Source: a virus. Taken from it: a stretch of 50,201 nucleotides of DNA. Positions 1-22,920 of the stretch are shown here, in pieces. Below the pieces are notes generated by a model. That model did no database searches, was not told the DNA's origin, and was given only the letters and a program-made list of their open reading frames with translations. The translations under genes were made by a program, and so were the position numbers. Within the stretch, counting starts at the first letter, position 1. Every line of letters starts with the position of its first letter. The DNA lies in IMG/VR virus record IMGVR_UViG_3300005747_000223, positions 1-50,201 of that record. One strand, written 5' to 3'.

Positions 1-130
1 CAAGTCGAAACTAGGCGAATTCAAACTAGGCAAGTCAAATTTACACTAAACGAATCTAGGCAAATCGAGTCTAGGCAAGTCAAATTAATGATAAGCAAGT
101 CCAGGCAAATCTAGACAACGCAAGGCAAAC
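1..130. repeat. Degenerate short direct-repeat array (about 10-15 bp units)
   Basis: Units of the type (A/G)A(A/G)TC-n-CTAGGC recur about every 10-15 bp. A 16-bp stretch, CTAGGCAAGTCAAATT, is exactly repeated at 26-41 and 71-86, and variants ending AGGC or AGAC lie between 50 and 130. No convincing gene lies in 1-260 on either strand. The array is cut by the window edge, so its full length is unknown. It may be an iteron-type binding region, a recombination remnant or a regulatory array. Confidence 0.6.
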
Positions 131-181
131 CTGCACTCAGCCACGGATCATCACCATAATGATCTACAGCTGTGTGTGCAG
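131..181. other. Nested dyad beside the repeat array
   Basis: CTGCAC (131-136) pairs perfectly with GTGCAG (176-181), CAG (138-140) with CTG (170-172), and GATCAT (146-151) with ATGATC (159-164) around the 7-nt loop CACCATA. The result is a three-tier cruciform or hairpin directly next to the repeats. It is not a tRNA. It could be a structured RNA element or, with the adjacent repeats, part of an origin or a protein-binding site. Confidence 0.4.
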
Positions 182-202
182 TGGAAGGTACCGAAGCAAC
201 AC

Positions 203-254
203 TCCCATTAAAAAAAGAAAATAAAAAAAGAACAGATGTGAGGTCTGTTCTTTT
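203..254 (-). terminator. Hairpin terminator with T-rich tail (leftward)
   Basis: AAAAGAACAGA (226-236) and TCTGTTCTTTT (244-254) form a perfect 11-bp stem with loop TGTGAGG. On the minus strand a T-rich run broken by one conserved A follows and ends in AATGGG. It starts 7 nt after the stop of the 261-428 gene. It may also stop rightward transcripts, because TTTT follows on the plus strand. Confidence 0.75.
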
Positions 255-260
255 ATGTGA

Positions 261-428
261 TCAATTTAACACAACTAGTATTCTTACTATATTGGCTGGT
301 AGATCATTTATACTCTGAATTTCGGATGGCCAGTAACCTGGTGCCCAATCCTCAATGCAGAGTATGAAGTTTGAATATGTATATCTTTGGTTGTAACAAT
401 CCCAAAGATACAAAGTACTACTTACCAT
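261..428 (-). CDS. Small unrecognised protein, 55 aa
   Basis: This short leftward frame begins MVSSTLYLWDCYNQRY and ends RILVVLN. It is supported by a strong ribosome-binding site (GGGAGGAATT then ATG at 428) and by a perfect hairpin terminator just after its stop, the same cassette layout as the five genes to its right. The product is tryptophan- and tyrosine-rich with no signal peptide or known domain that I recognise. The start is fixed by the Shine-Dalgarno site. Function unknown; probably one of the small accessory or early proteins of the phage. Confidence 0.6.
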   Translation of the reverse strand: MVSSTLYLWDCYNQRYTYSNFILCIEDWAPGYWPSEIQSINDLPANIVRILVVLN

Positions 429-456
429 AATTCCTCCCGGTTTATAGGTTTTAATA

Positions 457-512
457 CCGTTAGAAAAAGAAATAAAAAAAGGAAGAGACAGCTTTACCTG
501 TTTCTCTTCCTT
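457..512 (-). terminator. Hairpin terminator with T-rich tail (leftward)
   Basis: AAGGAAGAGACAG (479-491) pairs with 498-512 over 13 bp with a 2-nt bulge, loop CTTTAC. On the minus strand it is followed by TTTTTTTATTTC and then CTAACGG at about 457. It lies 8 nt after the stop of the 521-733 gene and immediately before the leader of the 261-428 gene, so it may hold both a terminator and the next gene's promoter. Confidence 0.75.
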
Positions 513-520
513 GCCACCAT

Positions 521-733
521 TTACTTACACCCTAATGTGCAGGCATGGAGGTAAATCCCATGCTTACACATTTTACGTGCAACTTTGCGTCGATGCCCTG
601 GAGAGACATTGTACGCAAACTTATTGCAACTAGTACAAGTTGCAACTTTGCCTTGATGTCTCACCAATTTGCCAACGCAATTGTAGTGGTGACACTGCCC
701 GTTTTTATGAGCAGTTACAGAACCTTTAGCCAT
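521..733 (-). CDS. Small Cys/His-rich protein, 70 aa (possible zinc-binding)
   Basis: A leftward 70-aa basic protein starting MAKGSVTAHK. It has seven cysteines (C14, C19, C33, C36, C56, C65, C69) and several histidines, including the pairs CHHYNC and CTSC, which resemble metal-binding knuckles of zinc-ribbon proteins. The ATG at 733 is chosen over an in-frame GTG two codons upstream because GGGAGG sits 6 nt before the ATG. Small Cys-rich phage proteins often bind nucleic acid or host proteins, but no specific role can be assigned. It is flanked by hairpin terminators on both sides, like its neighbours. Confidence 0.65.
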   Translation of the reverse strand: MAKGSVTAHKNGQCHHYNCVGKLVRHQGKVATCTSCNKFAYNVSPGHRRKVARKMCKHGIYLHACTLGCK

Positions 734-760
734 GAGCACCTCCCAGTGAGTGGTTAAGAT

Positions 761-824
761 CCATTAGAAAGAGAAATAAAAAAAGTAGAGCTTTCCTTAT
801 TTCTAAGTACTAACTCTGTCTACT
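761..824 (-). terminator. Probable hairpin terminator (leftward), weaker stem
   Basis: AGTAGA (784-789) pairs with TCTACT (819-824). The stem overlaps the stop codon of the 823-1044 gene. The minus strand continues into TTTTTTTATTTCTC and ends CTAATGG at 761, the same tail element as the other cassettes. The stem is shorter and the loop larger than its siblings. Confidence 0.45.
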
Positions 825-1044
825 AGCTTTTCCAACGGCAAACACGCATGTAGTTGCCGCTAATACCAACGATAACAGACTTACCAGGTGTTAGCTGGCA
901 CCAATTCTTAAGGTTAAACCTTATGAATGTAGGTGAAGTAAGCTTATCTTTGAGCTCTGGGCTCTTAACAAGTTCTTCGTTCATTGCTTCTGCAGTTTTT
1001 ATGACTACTTCTTTAATGTGTTTCCACTTTGCTTCTTGTTGCAT
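823..1044 (-). CDS. Small unrecognised protein, 73 aa
   Basis: A leftward gene whose product begins MQQEAKWKHIKEVVIKTAEA and ends VGISGNYMRVCRWKS. The N-terminal half looks alpha-helical and charged; the C-terminal half looks beta-rich. No family is recognised. The ATG at 1044 is chosen because TTGGAG lies 7 nt upstream; an in-frame TTG four codons earlier is part of that site. Its leader is almost identical to that of the 1484-1675 gene, which suggests shared control or a duplicated cassette. Confidence 0.6.
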   Translation of the reverse strand: MQQEAKWKHIKEVVIKTAEAMNEELVKSPELKDKLTSPTFIRFNLKNWCQLTPGKSVIVGISGNYMRVCRWKS

Positions 1045-1066
1045 GATATACTCCAATATATCGGGG
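1042..1066 (-). promoter_or_regulatory. Duplicated translation leader, copy 1
   Basis: On the minus strand the segment from CCCGATATATT through GGAGTATATCATG is repeated, with a single 1-nt indel, before the gene starting at 1675. A shorter version (GAGGTATATCATG) precedes the gene starting at 1359. Conservation exceeds what a ribosome-binding site alone needs. Confidence 0.55.
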
Positions 1067-1091
1067 TTGATGGCTTATGCTTGCGCAATCA

Positions 1092-1153
1092 CCGTTGAAA
1101 AGAGAAATAAAAAAAGAACCCATACAATACTAAATTAATAGTAAAGTATGGGT
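1092..1153 (-). terminator. Hairpin terminator with T-rich tail (leftward)
   Basis: ACCCATAC (1118-1125) pairs perfectly with GTATGGGT (1146-1153), and inside it TACTA (1128-1132) pairs with TAGTA (1139-1143). On the minus strand TTTTTTTATTTCTC follows and ends CAACGG at about 1092. It serves the 1174-1359 gene and abuts the leader of the 823-1044 gene. Confidence 0.7.
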
Positions 1154-1173
1154 CAGAGTGCTGTGAAAAAGGT

Positions 1174-1359
1174 TTACTTAGAAACGCCTGCTTCCTCACA
1201 GAACTCAACAGATGTAGTTGGCATTTTGCAAATGGTGACATCTATTGCTCTCGAAATGCTGATGGGCTCCATCAGCTGGCCTAGCTTTCCAAAGTGTTTA
1301 GGAGCGAGTGATGCTCCAACTGTTAGAAGACCGATAAGGCCGAAAATTGCTTTACGCAT
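1174..1359 (-). CDS. Small protein with hydrophobic N-terminus, 61 aa (membrane or exported)
   Basis: The product starts MRKAIFGLIGLLTVGASLAP: two basic residues, then a roughly 16-residue hydrophobic stretch ending in small residues, as in a signal peptide or single membrane anchor. The remainder (to EFCEEAGVSK) is short and mixed, with two cysteines. The ATG at 1359 follows AGAGG with 6-nt spacing. Its leader shares GGTATATCATGCG with neighbouring cassettes. No family is recognised. It could be an envelope-acting accessory protein such as a superinfection-exclusion or lysis factor, but nothing in the sequence shows which. Confidence 0.6.
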   Translation of the reverse strand: MRKAIFGLIGLLTVGASLAPKHFGKLGQLMEPISISRAIDVTICKMPTTSVEFCEEAGVSK

Positions 1360-1416
1360 GATATACCTCTTTTTGATCAGGCGGTTAAGGTCAAGGAATA
1401 TAGGCCTGTTCTATAT

Positions 1417-1464
1417 CCGCTAAAAGAAATAAAATAAAAAAGTCTTAGTATTTCTACTAAGACT
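1417..1464 (-). terminator. Hairpin terminator with T-rich tail (leftward)
   Basis: AGTCTTAGTA (1441-1450) and TACTAAGACT (1455-1464) form a perfect 10-bp stem with loop TTTC. On the minus strand it continues TTTTTTATTTTATTTC and ends TTTAGCGG at 1417. It serves the gene at 1484-1675. Confidence 0.8.
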
Positions 1465-1483
1465 CTCTCTCTACTTTTTTTAA

Positions 1484-1675
1484 TTATCGCTTTGGAAGCA
1501 ATGCTATTCCAGCAATATTAGCGATAAAAAATCCTACCATTGACAACCAGAAGTTTTCTTCTGAGCTAAACACAATGCTTGTTATAAGACTATCAAGTCC
1601 TGTAACAAATACGACGAAAGTTAAAAGAATAGCTACGGCCAAAGCTGCAATTACAGCAAACGCAAGATTACGCAT
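1484..1675 (-). CDS. Small membrane protein, 63 aa, two predicted membrane helices
   Basis: Starting at the ATG at 1675 (MRNLAFAVIAALAVAILL), the protein has one long hydrophobic helix at about residues 4-26 and a second at about 43-58 (FFIANIAGIALL), with a short polar segment containing SSEEN between them. It ends LLPKR. The start is set by TTTGGAG 7 nt upstream; a longer in-frame start at 1708 would add a proline-rich stretch with no ribosome-binding site. Probably an inner-membrane accessory protein (holin-like size, but no lysis partner is visible nearby). Function not assigned. Confidence 0.6.
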   Translation of the reverse strand: MRNLAFAVIAALAVAILLTFVVFVTGLDSLITSIVFSSEENFWLSMVGFFIANIAGIALLPKR

Positions 1676-1700
1676 GATATACTCCAAATATATCGGGTGT
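1673..1700 (-). promoter_or_regulatory. Duplicated translation leader, copy 2
   Basis: Minus-strand leader matching copy 1 at 1042-1066 apart from one inserted base, covering CCCGATATATTT then GGAGTATATCATG. The gene served encodes an unrelated protein, so the leader itself has been duplicated or kept. Confidence 0.55.
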
Positions 1701-1744
1701 GGATCCATTGAGCAAGGGAAGCAGGGGAGATCCGGGAACCTACT

Positions 1745-1803
1745 TCCGCTAAAAGAGTAAAATAAAAAAAGACCTCTACCTAGATAAACTAGATAGAGAT
1801 CTT
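1745..1803 (-). terminator. Hairpin terminator with T-rich tail (leftward)
   Basis: Positions 1769-1783 pair with 1789-1803 over 15 bp with loop ATAAA. The two non-Watson-Crick positions are G-U wobbles only in the minus-strand RNA, which shows the hairpin works in leftward transcripts. TTTTTTTATTTTAC and TTTTAGCGG follow. It serves the 1827-2348 gene. Confidence 0.8.
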
Positions 1804-1826
1804 CAATTACTTAAACCAATTAGCTA

Positions 1827-2348
1827 TTAGTATTTTACATACTCAAGCTTATTGATTTTGTTATCGTTATCGCGGGCTACCACAACGCTGATCCAATGTC
1901 CTTCAACTGTCATAGTTTTGAACTTGTAACCAACGCTAACATCGTTACCTACCTCTCTCGATACCTGCAAATCCCAATTAAAGCTCGCGGCTTCATTGTT
2001 CATTGAGGCACCAATGCTGAATTGGTACTGGATGTTATGTGGTTTCGCGTTGCTAACTGGTTTGGATTCTTTACCATCGTTAAACACAATGACCTTTCCT
2101 ACCGGGCCATTGGGAACCAAGGCTGCGATAGTCGGGTCGACGACGAACACACCTTTAGGTCCCCAATCTCCATATACACCATTCTTGCGAATAGGCATAG
2201 GAGTTGGGAGGACTGACTTGATGGTAACGTCGTCAATCGTGTCAACGAGGGTAAGGCGAACCTTAACTTCATTAGCAAGTGAAACGATAACGGGCGAATT
2301 GAGTGCACTAAGCTCATTAAATTGTGCAAGGGAAATAACCAAATTCAT
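1827..2348 (-). CDS. Unrecognised protein, 173 aa
   Basis: The largest leftward gene. The product, from MNLVISLAQFNELSAL to INKLEYVKY, is rich in alternating hydrophobic residues suggesting beta-structure, with a central proline/glycine stretch (PTPMPIRKNGVYGDWGPKG). It has no signal peptide, membrane helix or cysteine cluster. The ATG at 2348 is preceded by GGAAGGTGGGAA, a strong ribosome-binding site. I do not recognise a family; a soluble regulatory or host-interacting protein is possible. It is the first gene of the leftward array after the divergent control region, and ends shortly before a 15-bp hairpin. Confidence 0.65.
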   Translation of the reverse strand: MNLVISLAQFNELSALNSPVIVSLANEVKVRLTLVDTIDDVTIKSVLPTPMPIRKNGVYGDWGPKGVFVVDPTIAALVPNGPVGKVIVFNDGKESKPVSNAKPHNIQYQFSIGASMNNEAASFNWDLQVSREVGNDVSVGYKFKTMTVEGHWISVVVARDNDNKINKLEYVKY

Positions 2349-2445
2349 TTCCCACCTTCCTTGTTGTAAGGTTTAAAGATGGCGCTAAATTGACCGTACA
2401 GCAAGCTGCTTAAGCCAGACCAAGTCGCGTTCCCAATACTCGATC

Positions 2446-2530
2446 CGTTAAAAGAAATAAAATAAAAAAAGCATAGTTATTGAACCCGAGTGGGCTAACA
2501 ACTATACCGTTAGAAAATAATACATAATAT
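2446..2530 (-). terminator. Stand-alone hairpin between two T-rich/AACGG elements
   Basis: On the minus strand a TATTATTTTCTAACGG element (2505-2521) is followed at once by a hairpin (ATAGTT at 2473-2478 with AACTAT at 2500-2505, inner CCC/GGG 2485-2487/2492-2494, with G-U wobbles valid only in minus RNA), then TTTTTTTATTTTATTTC and TTTTAACGG at 2446. No gene lies upstream of it on this strand, so it is not simply the end of a gene. It may be an attenuator or a very short RNA of about 50-60 nt. Confidence 0.5.
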
Positions 2531-2754
2531 ATAATAGGTACATACCTAGTATATTTTTAAAACACTATTTTGCATTTTATTCAATTAACAGATTTAACAC
2601 CCCTCCCCCTTCAATATAAAAACTTTAGTGCTTTAAATAAAAAGCTATTTTAAAATTTTTAATTTAAAAAATTATTTCTTCTATATAGGAAATTTTCGTA
2701 AAAAATGTTATAAATCTTATATTGCTTATATTTTCCAAAAAGGAGCGCGCACCT
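2509..2754. promoter_or_regulatory. AT-rich divergent control region
   Basis: No gene is seen here. The stretch separates the leftward cassettes from the rightward virion operon and is very AT-rich, with runs of T and A at 2640-2680. An inverted repeat TAGGTA-CA-TACCTA lies at 2535-2548 (possible operator). TATAAATC at 2709-2716 matches 7 of 8 bases of the T4-type late promoter box and lies about 40 nt before the first rightward ATG. Neither site is proven. Confidence 0.4.
2535..2548. promoter_or_regulatory. Candidate operator (perfect inverted repeat)
   Basis: TAGGTA and TACCTA are separated by CA, a 14-bp near-perfect palindrome in the divergent intergenic region, where a dimeric regulator could act on both transcription units. 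Only one copy was seen. Confidence 0.3.
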
Positions 2755-7406: not shown

Positions 7407-8345
7407 ATGTTAGGAACTTTGATAGGAATGGCTACTGTAGCTGGAATGAATAAAATTGATCCAATGAGTATGCAACATGGGCATATGTACATGATGGGTT
7501 TAGGTCCAGCAGTTGGATTAGAAAAAGGCTCTAGTATTACTTATAATCTAGCAGATACTGGTGGGAGAATGGCTTATGAGTTTGGTGGTCAGGGATATTC
7601 TGCAGGTGCTACTAGAGCTAATGCAGGGGTAGATTTCAAACCTTTAGACCTAAATAAAATTAGTGCTGAGACTGGAAAGGGAACTAAGACCACCTTGGGA
7701 AAAGTAGTTCCTGGTGGTTTAGGTTCTGTAGCTATGTCTGCAATTGGACCTTTAATGTCTGCTGGATTTATAGTTGGTGGATTTAAAGAGAATGGTTTTG
7801 CTGGAGCAATGGATGCTTACTTTTTAGATATAGCCACTTCGAGAGCTATGTCTGCAGCAACTTTTGAAACAACAGTTACACAAGGAGCAGGTACAAACAG
7901 TTTGGGCACTGTTACTCACACTAGAAGACTTGGAATGCTAGGTAGTTTAGGTACTGGTATGGGTGCTTTTATGGGATACGAAATCGGTAATCAAATTGCT
8001 GGAGTGCCAGGTGGTTTTGTTGGTGCTACAATGGGATCAAAAGCGGCACTAGCTTTTGGAAGAAATCCTGCTGGTATGGGAGCTCTTGTTCTTGGAGGGT
8101 TAGCAGCGAAAAAAGCAGGGGAAGCAGTTGTTAGTAAAATTGGCCATATAGTTAAAAAAGGATATCAAAGAGGAAAAATGAGACATAGAATTGATACAGC
8201 TGGAAGTACTGCTGCCTTCTTTACACAAAATGCAATCACTACAAGAGGTAGAGCATTCGAAGCAATGAGAAAATCTCATTTAAATGCTAGAAGTGCATTA
8301 GGTATGGAAGCTAGTATGACTCATATGAATAGGAGCTACTTTTAA
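7407..8345 (+). CDS. Glycine-rich hydrophobic protein, 312 aa (probable virion or membrane-interacting)
   Basis: The product is dominated by glycine, alanine and methionine with several hydrophobic segments (for example LGTLIGMATVAGM, VAMSAIGPLMSAGFIVGG and MGALVLGGLAAKKAG) and a basic C-terminus. The composition resembles phage ejection or membrane-spanning virion proteins. No known family is recognised. It begins 2 nt after the nuclease-domain gene and overlaps the large terminase gene by one base (TAATG), so it is translated in the same operon. A role with the upstream giant protein is plausible but unproven. Confidence 0.6.
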   Translation: MLGTLIGMATVAGMNKIDPMSMQHGHMYMMGLGPAVGLEKGSSITYNLADTGGRMAYEFGGQGYSAGATRANAGVDFKPLDLNKISAETGKGTKTTLGKVVPGGLGSVAMSAIGPLMSAGFIVGGFKENGFAGAMDAYFLDIATSRAMSAATFETTVTQGAGTNSLGTVTHTRRLGMLGSLGTGMGAFMGYEIGNQIAGVPGGFVGATMGSKAALAFGRNPAGMGALVLGGLAAKKAGEAVVSKIGHIVKKGYQRGKMRHRIDTAGSTAAFFTQNAITTRGRAFEAMRKSHLNARSALGMEASMTHMNRSYF

Positions 8346-10543
8346 TGAGTAAAGAATTATATTTGAAAAATGAATTTGGTGTAACTTATCAAAATCCAGA
8401 AGCAAGAGTATCTGAAGAAACTATACAAGAATATAAAGAAAAGTATGGTATTCGTACAGATGTTCATAGAACTTGTGTAAATTGCCAAATAAGACAAATA
8501 CAAAAGTACAAAAACTTAATGGGAAAAGATCCAGAGTTTAAAGTTAAGTGCGATTTTATTCCAAAAGGACTTCCTAAAGGAGCGACTAAAAAAATTAAAG
8601 AGATAGTAGATAAAACTGACATCGAATACGATAGAGCTAAGAAGTTAATGTTATCTACAGTAGATCCTGTTGCATGGGCAGAGCTTATGTTCGGTTTTGA
8701 TGATAGCAATGAAAATTGGTGTATTAGAAACTATCAAAAAGAACAGCTGAGATGCTCTGCATACAGAAACGTAATCAGAGAAGGTCGTCGTTCCGGAAAG
8801 ACTTTTATTATGGCTCTTAAATTAGCTTATTATGCTTTCAACCTTATGATCGATAGAGGCTTTAATGCTTCAGGGGATAAACTTATCACTGGACCTTCAA
8901 TTATGATTGTTACTCCTTATCAAGCTCAGCTTACAAATATATTTAATGAAATAGAAATGCTTATCAAAAGAAATGTAGAACTTTCAGAACAAGTTGAAAC
9001 TGGAACTGGAGATAGCTTATATATTAAAACTCCAATGTATAAAATGGAGTTTAAGAATGGAGCTTCTATTAGAGGTTTTGTTTCTGGTTTAGGCGTAAAA
9101 GGCGATGGATCGGGTGGTGGTACTATTCGTGGTCAAAGTGCAGATGTAATTTATATGGATGAGATGGATATGATTCCGGAAGATATTTTGGATAAAGTTA
9201 TCACTCCTATCCTTTTAACTAAACCAGGCGTAAGACTAATTGCTACTTCGACTCCAATTGGTAAAAGAGGAAAGTTTTTTCAGTGGTGTTTAGAAAGACC
9301 AGACTATAAAGAAGATTACTATCCATCCTCAGTGTTACCTCATTGGGACTCTATTAAAGAGGAACTTTTAAATGAAAATACAGAAGAAGGTTTTAAAGCA
9401 GAGTATATGGCTGAATTTATTGAGGGCTCTTTTGGAGTGTTTAAGCCTTCTTGGATTTTTAATTCTAAAAGAGACTATCATTATAGTGAAGTAGATAGCG
9501 GAAGAAGTTTAAGGCAACTGGGTGTTGGGCCTGGTTCTGATATGATTACATGCATCGGCATCGACTGGAATAAAAATGCTGGAACAGAATTCTATGTAGT
9601 AGGATATTCTCCTAACGAAGGTGTATGGATAGCTTTAGATGCTGTAAATGTAGAAGCTACTCAATATTCAGCTAAACGCTGGATGGAAGAAGTAGTAAGG
9701 CTTAACTACAAATGGAAACCTAATTATATATACGCTGATGAAGGATACGGTCACACTATTTTAGAAGACTTAAAGCTGTATTCTCATAGAATGAGAATGA
9801 AAGACAATCCGACTCCAATGGATTTAGAAACGGCTAAATTGAATGACAGATTAGTTTCGTTTAACTTTTCAAGAAACTTAGAGATAAGAGATCCAGTAGA
9901 TCATACTCTTGTCAAGAAATCTGGAAAACATTTTTTAGTAGAAAATACAGTACGTATATTTGAAGATGGAAAAATGATTATACCAGCTAGCGATGATACT
10001 ATTACTAAGCAGATGATGAACTATGTAGTTTTGAGGCGCAATCCTCAAAACAATAAGCCTGTCTATGGAATGGATAATAACAACATTGGAGATCACAGAT
10101 TAGACGCTATGATGCTCGCTTTAGCTGGATTAACATTAGAAACATCAGTTTATTCCAATAACGGTATGGGAGATATAACTGTACCTGAATTTCTCCCCAG
10201 AGAAAGAGGTGAGCGTTGGCTAGAAACCAATGAAGAGGTTGGAATGATTAAAAGTGGAATTGAACAAGCCAGGGTTCCAAGAGCTTTTAATATATTGAAA
10301 ATTATGAGAGGAAATGGTTCGCCTGATCAAGATACATATATTAAAGAAAAAATGTACGCTCAAGGTATTTGGGAAGAAAGAGAAGAAACTTTTCAAAGGA
10401 AAAGCAGGAGTGAGCCTTTTAAATATCAAGAACAATCTACTATAATAGAATCAGTAAGTAAAGGAAATAACAATTTTAGACCTTCAGAACCTATAAGAAG
10501 AGGGCCTAAGCGTGGACGCAAAGGTAGAAGGTCTTGGAAATAA
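8345..10543 (+). CDS. terL: Terminase large subunit (packaging ATPase/nuclease), 732 aa
   Basis: This motor protein pumps DNA into the prohead and cuts it. The N-terminal ATPase shows Walker A GRRSGKT (147-153), Walker B VIYMDE (268-273) and the coupling motif ATSTPIGKRGKF (300-311). The C-terminal RNase H-fold nuclease shows acidic residues D407 (CIGIDWNKN), D465 (YIYADEGYG) and D583/D587 (GDHRLDAM). A cysteine pair (CVNC, 44-47) lies in an extended N-terminal region not needed in typical terminases. The C-terminal tail is very basic (RRGPKRGRKGRRSWK). Length is slightly above the usual 450-650 aa. Start ATG overlaps the previous stop by one base. Confidence 0.95.
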   Translation: MSKELYLKNEFGVTYQNPEARVSEETIQEYKEKYGIRTDVHRTCVNCQIRQIQKYKNLMGKDPEFKVKCDFIPKGLPKGATKKIKEIVDKTDIEYDRAKKLMLSTVDPVAWAELMFGFDDSNENWCIRNYQKEQLRCSAYRNVIREGRRSGKTFIMALKLAYYAFNLMIDRGFNASGDKLITGPSIMIVTPYQAQLTNIFNEIEMLIKRNVELSEQVETGTGDSLYIKTPMYKMEFKNGASIRGFVSGLGVKGDGSGGGTIRGQSADVIYMDEMDMIPEDILDKVITPILLTKPGVRLIATSTPIGKRGKFFQWCLERPDYKEDYYPSSVLPHWDSIKEELLNENTEEGFKAEYMAEFIEGSFGVFKPSWIFNSKRDYHYSEVDSGRSLRQLGVGPGSDMITCIGIDWNKNAGTEFYVVGYSPNEGVWIALDAVNVEATQYSAKRWMEEVVRLNYKWKPNYIYADEGYGHTILEDLKLYSHRMRMKDNPTPMDLETAKLNDRLVSFNFSRNLEIRDPVDHTLVKKSGKHFLVENTVRIFEDGKMIIPASDDTITKQMMNYVVLRRNPQNNKPVYGMDNNNIGDHRLDAMMLALAGLTLETSVYSNNGMGDITVPEFLPRERGERWLETNEEVGMIKSGIEQARVPRAFNILKIMRGNGSPDQDTYIKEKMYAQGIWEEREETFQRKSRSEPFKYQEQSTIIESVSKGNNNFRPSEPIRRGPKRGRKGRRSWK

Positions 10544-10569
10544 ATTTTAAACAACAAGGGAAATAAAAA

Positions 10570-11991
10570 ATGGCTTTAAATAAAAGAGTGATAGAAAGAG
10601 CGCTAAATGCGACCTTTGGCGAGAGTACACTTACTCCATTTAGAAGAAATGCTGAGTTTTTCGGCAGTCTTGATTTAAAAACTAGAAAAGACGTTTTATC
10701 GGGTGTCCCGAAGGCGGCGGAGAATATAGAGAATGTTGTAGCAAGGACTAATCAAGTCTTAGATCAAGGGGCGCCTGTTTTGAGATACGATAGCAATACG
10801 AACATGATGTCTACAATCTCAAATACTAATGGCACCCGCACTGTAAAAAGGCAACAATTTGCCGCAGAGAGTGTGGATGATGCGAATAAAAACTTGCATG
10901 GCTTTTTAATGCAGCATTCAAGTGAATATCAGCAAAATGTTAGATTTGCAACTGCACAACGTAAACAAGAGCTAAGTTATCAGAGGGTACAAGCAAGAAG
11001 AAATAAAGCAAAAAAAGAGAACTTCTTTGACGCTGATGCTCGAAAACTTCGCGAAGAACGACTAATGGGAGCTAGAGAAAGAGGTCAAATTAAGCAAGAT
11101 TCTAATGCTGAGTATCGGTTAAATAAAAAAGAGATGTCACCAGCACAAAGAGCACAGGCAGTTGAGGAATTTGACGCTCCTATAAATCAAAAATATCAAA
11201 AAGATATGGACTTTTTAACGGGAAAATCACAACAGGCTGCCGATATGGGGAATTATCCTTTGCAAGGTCGAATTGATGAAGGAATTAAAAAATTTGAAGC
11301 AGGAGAAATAACTGACCCAGAAGACATTATGAGAATGAATTACAAAACCGAAAAATATGTTGAGCCTACCTATGGAAAACAAAGCATTATGGATAGAGTT
11401 ATGCGTCGTCCAAAAGAAGAAATAACGCCAGGAAGATATACCTATGAAAAAAACAATGTAGGAGAAGCACTTGGATATGAATTTAAAGGTGCAGCATCAA
11501 AACAAAAATCTAATGGTTCCATAAATCCAGTATCTTCAGAAAAAGCAGGAGCTGGAGATGTTACTCCTGGAGATATGGGTTATGCAGGTTTTAGTAACGC
11601 TTTCGAAAGGCATGCAGCTGGAGCTGCTATTGGAGCAGGAATGGGAATGATGTCAGAAGGTGAAGTTTCAGTAGGTGGAGCTGCAAGAGGAGCAATGTTT
11701 GGTGTAGTAGGTGGTAAAGCTGCTCGAATGTTTACTGGGTCTATGAGAGGTGGAGCTGTCAATTCAATGGCTAGAGGAGTTGGAGATACTCTTTCTTCTG
11801 CTGGTCCAAATACTATGAGAGAAACTGCTGGTCAATTTATAAATAAAACTATGAGTGGATTCGATGCTGCTAAATCTCAAGAAGCTATGCGTATGGCTAC
11901 TTTTGCAGGAGCTGGATTGGCTGGATTTTCTATGGGAAGAGATAGAAACCACTCAAGAGGAATGAATGGTAGCCGAGGAAGTAGATTCTAG
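10570..11991 (+). CDS. Unrecognised protein, 473 aa, with glycine-rich hydrophobic C-terminal segment
   Basis: Residues 1-330 are charged, Gln/Lys/Glu-rich and largely helical. Residues about 347-385 form a Gly/Ala-rich hydrophobic segment (AAGAAIGAGMGMMSEG, GAMFGVVGGKAARMF). A second such stretch lies near the end (MATFAGAGLAGFSMG). This layout resembles phage internal or ejected virion proteins and the 312-aa neighbour. A good ribosome-binding site (AAGGG) precedes the ATG at 10570. It is followed by a GC-rich hairpin at 12019-12037. Function unknown. Confidence 0.65.
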   Translation: MALNKRVIERALNATFGESTLTPFRRNAEFFGSLDLKTRKDVLSGVPKAAENIENVVARTNQVLDQGAPVLRYDSNTNMMSTISNTNGTRTVKRQQFAAESVDDANKNLHGFLMQHSSEYQQNVRFATAQRKQELSYQRVQARRNKAKKENFFDADARKLREERLMGARERGQIKQDSNAEYRLNKKEMSPAQRAQAVEEFDAPINQKYQKDMDFLTGKSQQAADMGNYPLQGRIDEGIKKFEAGEITDPEDIMRMNYKTEKYVEPTYGKQSIMDRVMRRPKEEITPGRYTYEKNNVGEALGYEFKGAASKQKSNGSINPVSSEKAGAGDVTPGDMGYAGFSNAFERHAAGAAIGAGMGMMSEGEVSVGGAARGAMFGVVGGKAARMFTGSMRGGAVNSMARGVGDTLSSAGPNTMRETAGQFINKTMSGFDAAKSQEAMRMATFAGAGLAGFSMGRDRNHSRGMNGSRGSRF

Positions 11992-12018
11992 TTATACTAA
12001 TATTTAAGTAAAAAAGTA

Positions 12019-12037
12019 GGGGTGCGATTCGCACCCC
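12019..12037. terminator. GC-rich hairpin in the head operon
   Basis: GGGGTGCG and CGCACCCC form a perfect 8-bp stem with loop ATT. The plus-strand side lacks a T-run (AAGATATATAATG follows), while the minus side has ACTTTTTTAC a few bases on. It may be a weak terminator, a processing or mRNA-stability hairpin, or precede a promoter-like TATAAT at about 12043. Confidence 0.5.
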
Positions 12038-12065
12038 AAGATATATAATGTTTAAAGAGGTTTAA

Positions 12066-12503
12066 ATGTCTTTAGTTTTTTTTGATAAAAATATGAAAGC
12101 TTTTAACGGAGATCCATTTAGAAGTTTTCATGATGGTTATTCTGGAGAAGTATTTGAAGATAAAATTTATATAAAAAATTTAGATAAAACTAGATTTTAT
12201 ACAGAAGTAACAGCAGAAGCAAAGTTTAAAAATATTTATCAGCAAGATACTGGAGAATATGGGAACACTGGATGGAGCATTAAATTAATGTATGGAGAGA
12301 GACAGCCTACGGAAGAAGAGTGGTCTTACGTTCCTCCTGCATCTATTATATCCATTCCAGACATTGGCACTAGAGAAAGAGCAGATACAATTAGAAAACA
12401 CCCTGTTTGGGTGAGAATTTTTTGCCCAGGAAACAGTAGAGCTCAAATTAAAAAAAATATTTTTATAGAACTTCAATATTATGAAAAGGTTGTAAATGTC
12501 TAA
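12066..12503 (+). CDS. Unrecognised head-region protein, 145 aa
   Basis: A compact, probably beta-rich soluble protein (MSLVFFDKNMKAFNGD to LQYYEKVVNV) with YQQDTGEYGNTGWSIKLMYG and PTEEEWSYVPP as its most distinctive blocks. There is no signal peptide or membrane segment. AGAGG lies 6 nt before the ATG at 12066. It overlaps the next gene by 8 nt. Its place between the terminase and portal genes suggests a virion or assembly protein, but the family is not recognised. Confidence 0.65.
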   Translation: MSLVFFDKNMKAFNGDPFRSFHDGYSGEVFEDKIYIKNLDKTRFYTEVTAEAKFKNIYQQDTGEYGNTGWSIKLMYGERQPTEEEWSYVPPASIISIPDIGTRERADTIRKHPVWVRIFCPGNSRAQIKKNIFIELQYYEKVVNV

Positions 12504-13011
12504 AAAAGAATTTAACAGTATGATTGATTTCCAAAACATATTAGATGAATTGGAAAAAGTAACTTACCAACATGAAGGAAAGCCTTTAAATTTTAACATT
12601 AAAGAAAAGTTTGAAACTTTAAGAGAAGAAGCAATAAGAGAAGCAGAGCAAGATTTAGATAATATCTTCAATCAAGCGGTAATGAAAAATGTAAAAACTT
12701 TAGATAAGATTCCAGAACCTTTAACTGAAAAAGAAGCAGAAGCTTTTGAAGATAAGAAGACTGAAACTAGAGCTAAAATAGAACTTAATAAAAGAAAAAT
12801 AGAATATGCTAAAGCGCTTTTAGAAAAAAGGATAGAAGAAAAGCAAGGCTACTCTATGGATCTAAAAGAAAGAAAGATTACAAAGAAAGCTGCTAAAAGA
12901 TTTTTCAAAGAGAATAAAAACGAAATTACTTTTGAAGATTATAAAATTGCAAGAGAATTTAAAAATAAACAAAACAAAAAAGAAGTAAAAGATTTTATGA
13001 AGGATGATTAA
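12496..13011 (+). CDS. Coiled-coil protein, 171 aa
   Basis: A very charged Lys/Glu-rich helical protein with long heptad-like stretches (about residues 30-150), such as KFETLREEAIREAEQDLDN. No catalytic or membrane features. It starts at an ATG inside the previous gene's end, so translation is coupled. It could be an assembly chaperone or scaffold-type protein for the head. Function not assigned. Confidence 0.6.
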   Translation: MSKKEFNSMIDFQNILDELEKVTYQHEGKPLNFNIKEKFETLREEAIREAEQDLDNIFNQAVMKNVKTLDKIPEPLTEKEAEAFEDKKTETRAKIELNKRKIEYAKALLEKRIEEKQGYSMDLKERKITKKAAKRFFKENKNEITFEDYKIAREFKNKQNKKEVKDFMKDD

Positions 13012-13013
13012 CT

Positions 13014-13346
13014 GTGGGATTCTTAAAAAGAAGTATAAAAGGTATAGGTCTAGTAGAAGACGATGAGGCCGGTAGCTCTAATAACGGTTCAGGCATCTCT
13101 TTGGAAGAAGAAAAATATATGAGCTTGTTTATGAAAATGGGAAGAGATTTTGTTCATCAAGAAGACTTTTACAGAATAATGGAAAGGCTTTTGGAAGTTC
13201 TAGATATAGATGAATCTGAACTAGAGCTAGATAGAAGTAAAAGTGGCGCTGAGCAAAGAGCTGAAGAGTATAAGCATTTTTTAAAAACAAGTCAGTCCGG
13301 AAGTGACTACTATCCAGACCTAATAGATTTAAATAAAGAAGATTAA
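13014..13346 (+). CDS. Unrecognised acidic protein, 110 aa
   Basis: Product MGFLKRSIKGIGLVEDDEAG... with a basic, amphipathic N-terminus and an acidic remainder (DIDESELELDRSK). It is read from a GTG start at 13014, with AAGGAT upstream, 2 nt after the preceding stop. The next gene begins 2 nt after its own stop. No known domain. Probably part of the same assembly gene group. Confidence 0.55.
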   Translation: MGFLKRSIKGIGLVEDDEAGSSNNGSGISLEEEKYMSLFMKMGRDFVHQEDFYRIMERLLEVLDIDESELELDRSKSGAEQRAEEYKHFLKTSQSGSDYYPDLIDLNKED

Positions 13347-13348
13347 AT

Positions 13349-15049
13349 ATGAGTATTGAACAAGATCAAAATTATTTAGATGCATGTAAAATTGTAGAAT
13401 CTTATGAAAGAGCGGTTAGGTCTGAAAGAAATGAGCTTTCAATACTTTTGATGATGGAAGCCAGTATAGAATTTATGAAAGAAATTCTTGAATCTGGAGA
13501 AGCTGCACTGAATGAAATGGATATAGTAGATGATAATCCTGCTCCAGAAAGAGAAATAGAAGTAAATATACCAGACAATAATCAAGGTGTATCAAATCAA
13601 AGTCAAGATCAAAATTCTTGCGCGGAAGAAAAAGATTTTGTATCTTTAGATGGTGCTACTATAAATTTTAATTCTCCTGACAATATATCGCTAGATGCAA
13701 GTGAACTATTGGTAGATCCTGTAAATGCTATAGATAGCTTTCTTGGAGGAGATGGTGAAATAACCCCTGAAGATATACAGAAAAGCGCTAGTGAATGTTT
13801 TGACTGCAACTTAAAGGCTGAGTTTGATTTTCAAATCAAACCAATAAATCTTTTATCAGAGTTGATGCCATTGATTAATCAGATTGGAGCAATGCTAGAC
13901 AATGTAATAAATGAACTTAAGCCTTTTGATTTAATGGCTAATTTATGCAATATGAGTAAAAATGTAAGATTATTTTGTTTACCTGATTTACTTTCAATTC
14001 TAGTAACTCTAGAAGGGTTAATACAGAGATACATAGGTGAAGCTTTTAAGCTTGTTTTAAACTGGACATTTATTATTGGTCCATTAATTAAAGGTATTGT
14101 AGATATTGCAGCGACTTTAATGGAACAAATAAGAAGGCTGCTAGTTGCTCCGTTAGATTGTGCAGCAGGAGTCATTGGTACAATTTTAAACTTTGAAGAA
14201 TCTGTAAAAGATAAATTTAGCAATATGGAAGCTTTTGCTGCATCTTTTGTTGATTATAATTACGAAACAAAAAGTAATGCTTTGAGCAGAAATATGAAGT
14301 TTAGTCCAAGCCCAGAATCAAATAATGTGAGAAATGCAAAAACAAATAAAAAAAAGAAGAGTGATTCAAATGCTGAATATAATCTTACCTATGGATGGGA
14401 GTTTAGCATAAATGATACTTTAGCTTCTTCCTATCAAAAGAAAAAAGAACAGATTAAAGCTAGGCAGCGTTTAAAGAAAAGAAATAAAGCAATTGAAAAA
14501 TTAAATAAAGATCCTAGAAAAGCACAAAGTATTTTAGAGCAAGCAGAAGAAAATATTTCACCAGAAATAATGAGTTTAGGAGATATAGACAAAAAATCAG
14601 TTACTCAAGCTGAAATAGATGCAATCGAAGAAGAGTTTGGAAGATTGGCTGAGCAAGAAAATCAAGGTATGCTTAAGAATTTATTATTTGCAATAAATGA
14701 AGGAAAGGCTTGGATTAACAACTTGCATGCAAATTTATTATTATCTTTGAAAACTTTAAATGCTTTAGTAGCCAATAATCTAGAAGTATCTTTAAAATTA
14801 GGTGGATGGGTGCTTATGATATTTGATATGATTAAAGTAATTCAATTAATTGTTTACTTTTTTAAGAGCGGAAATTTCAAAAGCATTTGTGATATAATGG
14901 ACAATGATCCGGAAAGACTAAAAGATATTTTAGAAAGAGATTTTAAATGGGCTGCTGTTGATTTAGAAAACACACAAAAACAAATAGACGAATGGGAAGA
15001 ACAAGTAATGTTATTTGCCAATCAAGAAGAGTTAATAACTTGTGAATAG
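13349..15049 (+). CDS. Unrecognised protein, 566 aa, with hydrophobic helical core
   Basis: The acidic N-terminus (1-150) leads to a hydrophobic helical region at about residues 160-285 (LLSELMPLINQIGAMLDNVI; LNWTFIIGPLIKGIVDIAAT) that contains five cysteines. A charged linker follows, then another hydrophobic segment at about 480-515 (LGGWVLMIFDMIKVIQLIVYF). Multiple membrane-like segments in a gene set directly before the portal are unusual. It may be an internal or ejected virion protein, or a portal-vertex factor. The start ATG at 13349 is tight behind the previous gene. No family recognised. Confidence 0.6.
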   Translation: MSIEQDQNYLDACKIVESYERAVRSERNELSILLMMEASIEFMKEILESGEAALNEMDIVDDNPAPEREIEVNIPDNNQGVSNQSQDQNSCAEEKDFVSLDGATINFNSPDNISLDASELLVDPVNAIDSFLGGDGEITPEDIQKSASECFDCNLKAEFDFQIKPINLLSELMPLINQIGAMLDNVINELKPFDLMANLCNMSKNVRLFCLPDLLSILVTLEGLIQRYIGEAFKLVLNWTFIIGPLIKGIVDIAATLMEQIRRLLVAPLDCAAGVIGTILNFEESVKDKFSNMEAFAASFVDYNYETKSNALSRNMKFSPSPESNNVRNAKTNKKKKSDSNAEYNLTYGWEFSINDTLASSYQKKKEQIKARQRLKKRNKAIEKLNKDPRKAQSILEQAEENISPEIMSLGDIDKKSVTQAEIDAIEEEFGRLAEQENQGMLKNLLFAINEGKAWINNLHANLLLSLKTLNALVANNLEVSLKLGGWVLMIFDMIKVIQLIVYFFKSGNFKSICDIMDNDPERLKDILERDFKWAAVDLENTQKQIDEWEEQVMLFANQEELITCE

Positions 15050-15058
15050 GTTTAAATT

Positions 15059-16888
15059 ATGAAATTAGAATATTTAAAACAAATTGCCAAATACAGTGAC
15101 TTTGAAAAAGAAAGCATAACTGATCAAACTATTATTTCTGCTCCAGGAAAAGTAAGAAAAGTTGGAAGTAAAAGTATTTCTTATACTGAAAGACATAGAG
15201 GTATTTGGTTTAGACCAGAATACGATTTGCATGAAATACAGATTGCTCAAGATACTGATGGTTATTTATTTAGAGCAATCAAAAAGAAAGTCAACCGATT
15301 TCTTACAGCTGGCTGGGAAATAGTCGGAGTAGATCCAGAAGTTGTATCTTATATTAAAAAAAGAATTGCTGAAATAGAATATGTATCTCAAACACCATGG
15401 AACTTACTATTAAGTAATACTGCATGCGATTTAATTAGATTCTCTAATTGCATGTGGGTTAAAGCAAGAAGCCTGGACTCTTCATCTGGTAAAAGAAGAA
15501 AGATTTTTGATAGTTTAGAAGTAGATCCAGTTGCCGGATACTTTATATTACCTTTTGAAACTTTAGCTTTTAAAACTAAAAGAAATGGCGAAATTAAAAA
15601 GATCAGGCAAAGAATGCCTAGTGGAGACGAAAGGTTTTTTAATCCCCAAGATGTTATCCACTTTTATGAGAATCGCAAACCTGGATTTGCGATGGGGACG
15701 CCAGAACTAACACCAGTACTTGATGATATATCTCTATTAAGAAGAATAGAAGAAAATGTAGAAGATTTAATTGAAAGCAATCTATATCCTTTATTTCATT
15801 ATACTGTAGGCTCTGACAACTTTCCTGAAAGATACTCTCCTGAAGGTTACAAAGAAACTGATATTGTAAAGAACACAATTGATTACATGCCAGCTGGTGG
15901 AATATATGTTTCAGATCATAGACACAAAATACAAGCGATTGGTTCGGAAGGTAGAGCTTTAAGAATAGAGGGTTATTTAGAATATTTTAAGAAAAGAGTA
16001 ATAGCTGGTTTAGGTTTGTCTTCAGTGGATATGGGTGAAGGCGACACTGCAAATAGAAGTACTGCTAATGCTTTATCTCAAAGTGCTATTCAAGATGTAG
16101 AAGCACTTCAACAAACTATGAAAAACTTTATTGAGTTTTTCGTATTTAATGAACTTTTATTAGAAGGTGGGTATGATCCTTTAGAAGCTAATAATAAAAT
16201 TGAAATTAAATTTGGTATTATTGATAGAGAGAATAGAAGTAAGCTAGAGAATCAAACTATTCAATTGTGGTTGAATAATTTACTTTCAGAAAATGAAGCA
16301 AGACAACGTTTAGGTTATGCGCCGAACGTAGATAAAGAAGATACTCATTTTAAATTGTATCAAGAACCATTGGCTTTATTAAAAGTAATGGGACCTTTCA
16401 ATGCTGCTTCAAAAGCTCTTTCAGAATCAAAAACTTCCTCTATAAGTGAAGAAGGGTTAAGCAGGGAAGAATCTAATGAAGCTAGAAGAAACGAAGCTAG
16501 AGGACAGAAGGGTTTAACTCAGGCTAAAGGGCCTGAAAATCTATCTAATAATATATCTAGACCAGCAAATCAAACTGGAGTTAGAAGTGCACCAAAGTTT
16601 TCAAGTGACATTTATTATCAGATAGCCAGCACTATAGAAGATATTGAAAGTTTTTTTAAAAATCGACTTGACAATAAAAATGAAAGTACCTTAGAATACA
16701 CTATGATAGCGCTTGAAAAAAATGAATTGATTTTTGATTTTATTGCGGAAGTAAAAAACATTTTAAAAAACTTGAAGTATAATAATAAAAATATTAATAT
16801 TGAAGATGTGCACACATCCAGTTATGCTGTTATATATGATTTCTGTGAAGAGTATAAAGCAAAATTAATTAATTCGGAGAAAAAATGA
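15059..16888 (+). CDS. Portal protein, 609 aa
   Basis: The portal forms the dodecameric DNA gate of the head. Typical features are an N-terminal block with AIKKKVNRFLTAGWEIVG, a clip/stem region with PQDVIHFYENRKPGFAMGTP, helices with LLRRIEENVEDLIESNLYP, and a core motif GLGLSSVDMGEGDTANRSTA followed by a long helix. C-terminal residues about 440-510 are a polar, Ser/Glu/Arg-rich linker, and a helical extension of about 90 aa follows that many portals lack. It ends in ATGA, overlapping the protease gene by 4 nt. Size (609 aa) is within range for large phages. Confidence 0.9.
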   Translation: MKLEYLKQIAKYSDFEKESITDQTIISAPGKVRKVGSKSISYTERHRGIWFRPEYDLHEIQIAQDTDGYLFRAIKKKVNRFLTAGWEIVGVDPEVVSYIKKRIAEIEYVSQTPWNLLLSNTACDLIRFSNCMWVKARSLDSSSGKRRKIFDSLEVDPVAGYFILPFETLAFKTKRNGEIKKIRQRMPSGDERFFNPQDVIHFYENRKPGFAMGTPELTPVLDDISLLRRIEENVEDLIESNLYPLFHYTVGSDNFPERYSPEGYKETDIVKNTIDYMPAGGIYVSDHRHKIQAIGSEGRALRIEGYLEYFKKRVIAGLGLSSVDMGEGDTANRSTANALSQSAIQDVEALQQTMKNFIEFFVFNELLLEGGYDPLEANNKIEIKFGIIDRENRSKLENQTIQLWLNNLLSENEARQRLGYAPNVDKEDTHFKLYQEPLALLKVMGPFNAASKALSESKTSSISEEGLSREESNEARRNEARGQKGLTQAKGPENLSNNISRPANQTGVRSAPKFSSDIYYQIASTIEDIESFFKNRLDNKNESTLEYTMIALEKNELIFDFIAEVKNILKNLKYNNKNINIEDVHTSSYAVIYDFCEEYKAKLINSEKK

Positions 16889-18687
16889 TTAAATTAATAG
16901 ACTATGTAAAAGTAATGCCAGACCCTAGTCTATACAAACTTTCGAAAAAAGAAAAGATTGAACTTATCGATTCTTCAATCAATCCTGTAAAGAATGGATT
17001 GATCATTACTTATGACTTAAGTCATTCGGCTAGAAGAATTAATAATAGAATTTATTCTATTAAAGGTCAACAAAATGGAATCAAATCATTGCTTACACCA
17101 TATGCGAAGCCCATTTTACAACATCACGATACCGGAAAAGATCCAATTGGTAGATTCGTTGGTGGAAAGTGGGAAGATCTTTCAAATGAAGCTATTAGGT
17201 TTTTTGATAACCTAGGGGCTTTTATGAAATTTAAGCAAGAAATGAATAGCGATGATCCAGAAAGAATGTATCAAGCATTAAAACGACACAATTTACTTAC
17301 TAATAAAAATTGGCCAGGTTTAGGAAGAATGAGAGCTACTGCTAAAATTACAGATAAAGAAGCAGTAGAAAAATTCTTAGATGGCAGATATATTACTTTT
17401 TCAGCAGGTTCAACTACAGATAAGCATGTTTGTTCAATTTGTAATTGCGATTGGGCAAAAGGTGATTTCTGCGAACATCGTCATGGAAAAATTTATGATA
17501 ACGAAACCTGCGTATTTTTTACTGGAGACTTTAGAGTGCTAGAAGGTTCAGTAGTCAATACTCCAGCTGATGATTTATCTCAAATACAATCTATGGAACT
17601 ATTGTCTGACAGCTCTAATGATCTTCCTACTTTAGGTGGAATTGAGCTTGACGATAGTTACATTTTTTTAAGTGATTCTACATTAAATTATAATATTCCA
17701 AATGAGGAGGTTTCAATGGAGAAAGATGAAACTTCTGTTAAAGAGGAAGTTTCTGAAGCTACCACTGAGCCTGAAGGTGAAGTAACTGTAGAAGATGAAG
17801 CTAAATCAGAAACAGAAGAAATTGAATTGTCTGATAAAGTAATGGAAAAGATTTTCAATTACATTAAAAACAAAATGAAGGAAGATGACAATGCCAAAGA
17901 AGAAAAAGAAGAAGCTCAATCCGAAAATCCTGGAGAAGTACTCGAAGCCAAAGATTCGCAAGTCGATGAAAAGCAAGAGTCACAAGGAAGCGATGGGGCC
18001 GAAGTATCGGGGGTACAAAGTGATGTACAAGATGAAAAAGAGAACAAAGAACAAGTAGGTGATTTTGACGGAGACATTAGTACTCTAGTCGATGATCTTA
18101 CTTTAGATTGGTATCTTTTAGATTCTGCTCTTGGTTTCGAGTTGGGTGATAAAGCCTTAACGACAGAACAAAGAAATGAATTGCCTGATTCTGCTTTCTG
18201 CGGTCCAGAACGCTCATTTCCAGTCAATGATTGTGCGCATGTAACTGCTGCTCGAAGATTGATTGGTAGAGCCAAATTGTCTGATTCTCAAAAAGCTAAA
18301 GTATTGGCTTGCGTTAATCGCAAAGCCAAGAGTATGTCTTGTGACAAAACTGCAGAAGATAAACTTGATGATCTTGCAATGAAGCTTGAAGCTGAAATTA
18401 AAGATTTAAAAGAAAAACTCAGTAATCTAGGTGATAGTAAAGAAGAAGTTGTAGTAGAAGAAAAGAAAGAATTAAAGATTGTTGAGAATCCTTCAGTTGG
18501 CACTTCAGACCAATCGAGTCCTACTGACAATAACAATATTAAACAACTTGGTTCTTACGAACAAAAGATTATTAAAGATTATAGTAAAATTTTAAATGAC
18601 GAGGGTGAAATCGCTGCAGAAAGCTTTTTCAACCGAAAGTCTAGATACCTTGCAAAAGGATTTCATCCAAAAAAATATATAAATTAA
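16885..18687 (+). CDS. Prohead maturation protease fused to scaffold-like domain, 600 aa
   Basis: Residues 1-235 fit a capsid maturation protease: PILQHHDTGKDPIGRF (76-91, candidate catalytic His) and YITFSAGSTTDKH (169-181, candidate Ser173), with a cysteine/histidine cluster C183, C186, C188, C196, H198 right after it that could bind zinc. Residues about 270-400 are acidic, Glu-rich and helical, as in scaffold proteins. Residues about 402-490 hold another conserved-looking module with LPDSAFCGPERSFPVND and RACVNRK-like CVNRKAKSMSCD. The C-terminus ends in a lysine-rich helix. It likely serves as scaffold during head assembly and then cleaves it. It overlaps the portal by 4 nt and precedes the capsid genes. 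Confidence 0.75.
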   Translation: MIKLIDYVKVMPDPSLYKLSKKEKIELIDSSINPVKNGLIITYDLSHSARRINNRIYSIKGQQNGIKSLLTPYAKPILQHHDTGKDPIGRFVGGKWEDLSNEAIRFFDNLGAFMKFKQEMNSDDPERMYQALKRHNLLTNKNWPGLGRMRATAKITDKEAVEKFLDGRYITFSAGSTTDKHVCSICNCDWAKGDFCEHRHGKIYDNETCVFFTGDFRVLEGSVVNTPADDLSQIQSMELLSDSSNDLPTLGGIELDDSYIFLSDSTLNYNIPNEEVSMEKDETSVKEEVSEATTEPEGEVTVEDEAKSETEEIELSDKVMEKIFNYIKNKMKEDDNAKEEKEEAQSENPGEVLEAKDSQVDEKQESQGSDGAEVSGVQSDVQDEKENKEQVGDFDGDISTLVDDLTLDWYLLDSALGFELGDKALTTEQRNELPDSAFCGPERSFPVNDCAHVTAARRLIGRAKLSDSQKAKVLACVNRKAKSMSCDKTAEDKLDDLAMKLEAEIKDLKEKLSNLGDSKEEVVVEEKKELKIVENPSVGTSDQSSPTDNNNIKQLGSYEQKIIKDYSKILNDEGEIAAESFFNRKSRYLAKGFHPKKYIN

Positions 18688-18699
18688 GGAGATTAAAAA

Positions 18700-20247: not shown

Positions 20248-20261
20248 TAAAGGAGTTCAAA

Positions 20262-21584: not shown

Positions 21585-21614
21585 TCTTTAATTAATTAAA
21601 GTAAATCAAATTAC

Positions 21615-21641
21615 GGGGAGGGGGCAACTCCTCCCCTTTTT
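21615..21641 (+). terminator. Rho-independent terminator after the major capsid gene
   Basis: GGGGAGG (21615-21621) pairs with CCTCCCC (21630-21636), loop of 8 nt, followed by TTTTT. It lies about 30 nt after the capsid stop codon and would separate high capsid transcription from the tail operon. Confidence 0.85.
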
Positions 21642-21663
21642 ACTAAAACGAGTGAATACTTTC

Positions 21664-21873
21664 ATGGAAGAAAAAAGTTTATTAGAGCGATGGAAAACGA
21701 TTAAGAAAAAAGAAGAAAAAGATAATCCTTTTGGAAAATTTGTAGTAGACGAAGGTGAGTTTGTTACAATTACTCCAGGAGTGCAACAATTAAAAGTTGA
21801 AGAACTTTATGAAGAAGAAAAAGTAGAGGAACAAAATGGCAGCACCAACGATAAGCCTAATATATCCAAGTAA
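21664..21873 (+). CDS. Unrecognised small protein, 69 aa
   Basis: Product MEEKSLLERWKTIKKKEEKD..., charged and helical, with an acidic C-terminal half. The ATG at 21664 is used; a GTG at 21652 in the same frame would add MNTF and cannot be excluded. The ribosome-binding site is weak. It overlaps the next gene by 38 nt, which suggests coupling. It could be a small head or neck assembly factor; no family recognised. Confidence 0.5.
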   Translation: MEEKSLLERWKTIKKKEEKDNPFGKFVVDEGEFVTITPGVQQLKVEELYEEEKVEEQNGSTNDKPNISK

Positions 21874-22912: not shown

Positions 22913-22920
22913 AGGCGCAT

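Follow-up and report, generated by a model that had tools for sequence, protein, structure and literature searches.

The array of T-rich elements

The window, a 50.2-kb stretch of viral DNA (positions 1 to 50,201 of IMG/VR record IMGVR_UViG_3300005747_000223), contains rightward genes, among them those for a terminase (8345-10543) and for a portal protein (15059-16888). At its left end, small genes run leftward and are separated by copies of a T-rich element. Does this element end the transcript of one gene, begin that of the next, or do both? The initial annotation described eight T-rich copies that end in GG, are fused to hairpins and mark gene borders, and suggested a combined terminator-promoter, with a polymerase of the phage itself as a possible reader. 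All eight copies were recovered on the minus strand of window 1-2560, no more than 2 nt from the positions first given, with their final G at 2507, 2445, 1746, 1417, 1092, 761, 457 and 205. Seven of the eight read T6-7 A TTT followed by mixed bases and A[AG][CT]GG. The full motif occurs seven times on the minus strand of window 1-2600; 100 dinucleotide shuffles gave 0.0 on average. A scan of both strands did not find it elsewhere in the window.

The inner A and the GG end had been held to be conserved beyond the needs of a plain terminator, and the remainder of the window bears this out. T5+[AG]TTT runs are followed by ARYGG in 7 of 7 cases in the array, versus none of the 11 other minus-strand runs and not at the single plus-strand run. 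Because the ending is missing from the remaining T-runs of this strand and the first copy carries it without a hairpin, A[AG][CT]GG is not part of a terminator tail. The features of the array, in the direction of reading, are as follows.

2524-2541, minus: conserved junction box GTACCTATTATATATTAT, about 42 nt upstream of AGCCCACC; about 25 loci
2507-2536, minus: element 1, putative promoter of the first unit, TATTATATATTATGTATTATTTTCTAACGG; no upstream hairpin
2471-2508, minus: hairpin formed by the first short unit, perhaps a small RNA; -19.7 kcal/mol, followed by T7 (terminator)
2445-2470, minus: element 2, TTTTTTTATTTTATTTCTTTTAACGG; U-tract and putative promoter of the 173-aa gene
1827-2348, minus: small early gene, 173 aa, function unassigned; 96-nt leader, no Pfam match
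1771-1804, minus: terminator hairpin, -21.5 kcal/mol
1746-1770, minus: element 3, ending AGCGG
1484-1675, minus: small early gene, 63 aa
1442-1466, minus: terminator hairpin, -14.0 kcal/mol
1417-1441, minus: element 4, ending AGCGG; leader opens with GGATATAG..CCTATATTCC, an 8-bp 5' stem
1174-1359, minus: small early gene, 61 aa
1116-1154, minus: terminator hairpin, -19.4 kcal/mol
1092-1115, minus: element 5, ending AACGG
823-1044, minus: small early gene, 73 aa
761-784, minus: element 6, ending AATGG; weak upstream hairpin, 27-nt leader
521-733, minus: small early gene, 70 aa, Cys/His-rich
481-512, minus: terminator hairpin, -16.4 kcal/mol
457-480, minus: element 7, ending AACGG; 28-nt leader
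261-428, minus: small early gene, 55 aa
230-253, minus: terminator hairpin, -9.9 kcal/mol
205-229, minus: element 8, ending AATGG; then a stretch without a listed minus-strand gene, to the window edge and beyond

Clear hairpins, with predicted energies of -9.9 to -21.5 kcal/mol, precede six copies. The element at 784-761 has only a weak upstream hairpin that was absent from the hairpin finder output, and the copy at 2507 has none. The fusion to hairpins therefore holds clearly for six of the eight copies, and the motif is not confined to U-tracts that follow hairpins. The assignment of the copies to gene borders also needs amendment at both ends of the array: the interval between the copies at 2507 and 2445 lacks a gene and contains only a hairpin of about 38 nt, and no minus-strand gene of at least 40 aa is listed after the copy at 205. 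An Rfam search of the array returned nothing convincing.

The six small genes have leaders of 27-96 nt, and none of them matched a Pfam family above the curated cut-off. The U-run and the ATG are separated by 52-123 nt in the gaps, and sigma70 promoters were considered there and rejected, the best sigma70-like scores reaching 6-8 of 12. Together, these distances and scores leave little space for another promoter. The units may have spread through duplication. Near the left end, irregular TTGCCTAG repeats occupy window 1-120 on the minus strand.

We propose that the element is probably a fused terminator-promoter, its U-tract doubling as the T-rich part of a promoter that is read by a phage polymerase. 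The hairpin and U-run would terminate the RNA of the small gene that lies upstream, while the same T-rich stretch together with A[AG][CT]GG would serve as the promoter of the next unit. Since one T-run would both release one transcript and start the next, each small early gene would form its own short transcription unit.

Distribution among related phages

Among annotated phages, the terminase places Moorella phage MTATph1, Acinetobacter phage ME3 and Bacillus phage KLEB27-3 closest, each at less than 30% identity. A search for related terminases yielded 53 loci in viral contigs and one in a gammaproteobacterial metagenome bin. The leftward early array is common to many of these relatives and takes clade-specific versions, such as TTTTTCTTTTAAYGAG in L173, TTTTTCTTTCTATGG in L179 and L183, TTTTCTTTACGG in L182 and CTTTTTATTTCAATGG in the GC-rich L154. 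In the 111.6-kb L100 contig the copies are clustered in the final 3.3 kb, and the other matches that a loose search gave there have no T-run. An exact motif scan of viral contigs yielded 96 stretches, each with a single match among the matches listed; these are mostly chance, and one of them, L071, is a close relative.

In a sample of 24 loci, the element is present at 68 of 88 early-strand hairpin terminators versus 13 of 100 other terminators, counts that overstate independence because the elements of the family share ancestry and related contigs repeat some of them. Scrambled cores match only 6-18 of the same 88 terminators. Comparison across phages favors the combined function, and the phage reader, that had been put forward for the element, and supports its putative role as a promoter. 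Some terminators that lack the element sit where other sequence follows. Two of these, L179 10757 (minus) and L183 15594 (plus), are followed by several ACTCCGC repeats, which perhaps mark the end of the array.

L182 and L183 contain displaced elements that lie away from a hairpin. These copies bear on another possible arrangement, in which the hairpin itself is the promoter and is extruded in the DNA, as in N4. N4-type virion polymerases use hairpin promoters, and a hairpin does lie just upstream of most copies in the window. An arrangement of this type with a hairpin at every promoter was rejected, as the first and the displaced copies have none. Moreover, the hairpins vary in length and sequence, whereas the T-run and GG are fixed. 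We consider hairpin-directed initiation highly improbable.

Long minus-strand stretches without an obvious gene are found in L129 (1360-36), L154 (4515-3770), L135 (520-1) and L127 (687-254), either inside the arrays or at their end. Rfam gave no match to these four stretches. They are possibly structured RNA, and window 203-1 may be the start of such a stretch.

Likely start site

Analysis of the sequence downstream of the elements points to GG as a likely site of initiation. Among 75 distinct elements, 39% have a stem of at least 5 bp that begins at the first G, versus 13% of shuffled sequences (maximum of 200 shuffles, 25%). In predicted RNAs from these 75 elements, the starts of stems peak at offsets -1 and 0 relative to the first G. 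Transcription would most likely begin at GG or at the preceding base, and the resulting RNA would often open with a short 5' hairpin. One unit of L128 is informative in this respect, since its Shine-Dalgarno sequence lies about 6 nt past AGTGG and leaves nearly no space for a later start.

The first unit and the divergent junction

The first copy lies where the early and structural genes diverge. This junction harbors a box with the family form GTACC[AT]GGTATTTATA, which precedes AGCCCACC by about 42 nt in about 25 related loci (window 2541-2489, minus). AACGG sits between the box and AGCCCACC in the window, and the hairpin of the first unit holds the conserved AGCCCACT at 2496-2489; the sequence of this hairpin is identical in L071. 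Counterparts of the first element, which likewise have no preceding hairpin, occupy the same junction in L071, L100, L127, L128, L129 and L236. In our model, the first unit would have a promoter without a preceding terminator, an extra upstream box and a short hairpin RNA ahead of the first gene. None of the other copies showed the box, which raises the possibility that the first promoter is stronger or regulated.

An alternative scheme has leaky intrinsic terminators of the plain kind, with one promoter at 2507-2541 driving the entire array and each terminator trimming the flow. Most copies do have a canonical hairpin and U-run, and the strong conservation of a box seen at no other copy makes the first site a possible main promoter. 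ARYGG would then have some other role, such as the start of a 5' hairpin that stabilizes the RNA after processing. Against this scheme stand the strong enrichment of ARYGG at early-strand terminators, its occurrence without hairpins and its resemblance to pre-early sites of phage P23-45 (see below). We regard a single promoter with leaky terminators as unlikely, and a role for ARYGG in processed RNA as similarly doubtful.

Comparison with known systems

In the hot-spring Thermus phage P23-45, genes 59-77 are the region to which the virion RNA polymerase gp96 binds; an AT-rich motif is common to 14 mapped transcription starts and agrees in location with gp96 binding (PMC10770324). We built a weight matrix from 16 elements, taken from the window and L100 only, and scanned the 84-kb P23-45 genome with it. 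The four best matches sit ahead of genes 67, 59, 68 and 69, all within the pre-early region to which gp96 binds; only 2 of 300 column-shuffled matrices placed all of their top four in that region. The DNA before P23-45 genes 59-77 repeatedly reads TTATTCYTTTATGG, which at several genes stands directly behind a GC-rich hairpin. Judging from their position, these T-rich sites presumably correspond to the mapped AT-rich motif. The sites in both phages consist of a T-rich stretch followed by TTT-A-YGG and precede small pre-early genes. They differ in that the ATG of the P23-45 site is mostly the annotated start codon, whereas ARYGG in the window precedes a leader of 27-96 nt. Furthermore, the polymerase resides inside the tape-measure protein in P23-45, whereas the window has a separate protein of 1883 amino acids.

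The element can also be compared with the PeSL elements of T4-like phages, which were reportedly described by Arbiol in 2010 and by Comeau in 2014. One account calls these promoter early stem-loops "composite conserved promoter-terminator motifs" (PMC4503421). In PeSL a stem-loop is joined to an early promoter and the unit is repeated between genes, and the window shows this joined structure with a putative promoter. Unlike PeSL, however, the promoter part in the window is not sigma70-like, the U-tract of the terminator and the T-run of the promoter are the same bases, and the likely reader is a phage polymerase. The terminase search revealed no link of these phages to T4. Intrinsic terminators share the hairpin and U-run with the elements of the window, but neither the constant A[AG][CT]GG behind the U-run nor hairpin-less copies belong to a terminator. 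The element is best read as belonging to the broad composite promoter-terminator kind that PeSL represents, with a promoter that is not of the sigma70 type and a shared T-run.

A candidate phage polymerase

In the proposed mechanism the most likely reader is a two-barrel RNA polymerase of the phage itself, which would probably travel in the virion and transcribe the leftward array early in infection. The candidate is encoded on the opposite strand.

37175-42826, plus: candidate virion RNA polymerase, 1883 aa, with DMDGD (the DxDGD signature of RNA polymerases); in the rightward structural gene block

Homologues in other contigs range from 1668 to 2420 aa (2061 aa in the L100 contig). An alignment of 11 divergent sequences, 18-27% identical to the window protein, shows no variation in the three presumed catalytic aspartates of DxDGD. 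A gene of 1169-1426 aa precedes the candidate in the four loci read on both sides, as it does in the window. The array and the DxDGD gene occur together: G027, G028 and G031 were found solely through the candidate protein, and all three carry the array. No polymerase was seen in G010 or in shorter fragments of the group, possibly because of divergence or missing sequence.

Sequence searches of the PDB with the 1883-aa protein gave no significant match to solved polymerases, and profile comparisons of the giant protein with P23-45 gp96 and with an ME3 giant protein likewise gave none. A first structure model was too poor for use (pLDDT 45.5). The model of the L218 homologue (pLDDT 70.5) retrieved nothing from the PDB at an E value of 0.001 or better; its best 50 matches are mostly RNA polymerase beta-prime-type chains, at E values of 0.1-0.7. 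Its best match among predicted structures is an uncharacterised protein of Acinetobacter phage ME3 (E = 4.9e-6, TM 0.36), and the fold may therefore be that of a general tail protein. ME3 has three consecutive giant genes, as does the window, and this order together with the single structural match suggests that the genes correspond one to one. Neither a D.D[GAS]D motif, among open frames of at least 600 aa, nor the array was found in ME3, a point in favor of the proposed model.

The same terminator-promoter might instead be read by the host RNA polymerase aided by a phage factor. That the 1883-aa protein is a candidate polymerase rather than an established one leaves room for such a reader. 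It would nevertheless have to work in gaps that offer no good sigma70-like hexamers, and on a motif that matches P23-45 sites in a region bound by a virion polymerase; we judge it to be improbable.

Considering the array and the phage polymerase candidate together, we lean toward an uncultured phage group that combines a two-barrel polymerase encoded in the structural block with a matching series of terminator-promoters that overlap, a single T-run both ending and starting transcripts. If so, the P23-45 type of phage-polymerase promoter would reach beyond a few Thermus phages into a broad uncultured group, and the little-studied single-subunit two-barrel RNA polymerases would gain a readable promoter rule. 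The arrangement would also be a very compact means of separating small genes, and it offers a simple sequence test for spotting such phages in metagenomes.

Relatives without the array

The array is absent from the relatives G003, G004 and G005 (L117-L123), whose early-gene gaps contain hammerhead-ribozyme-like cores instead. Rfam gave no report of these cores. Each genome has 6-7 of them, for example at 15257, 15397, 16421, 23601, 24602, 25189 and 25641 on the plus strand of G003. A strict test of the stems was passed by 6 cores, versus 0 in 60 shuffled genomes. The early region of these relatives also encodes giant proteins that are 1700-1861 aa long and contain a GDNDGD motif (G003, plus, 17482-23067; G004, plus, 15207-20726; G005, minus, 9875-14983), each of which is possibly an early RNA polymerase.
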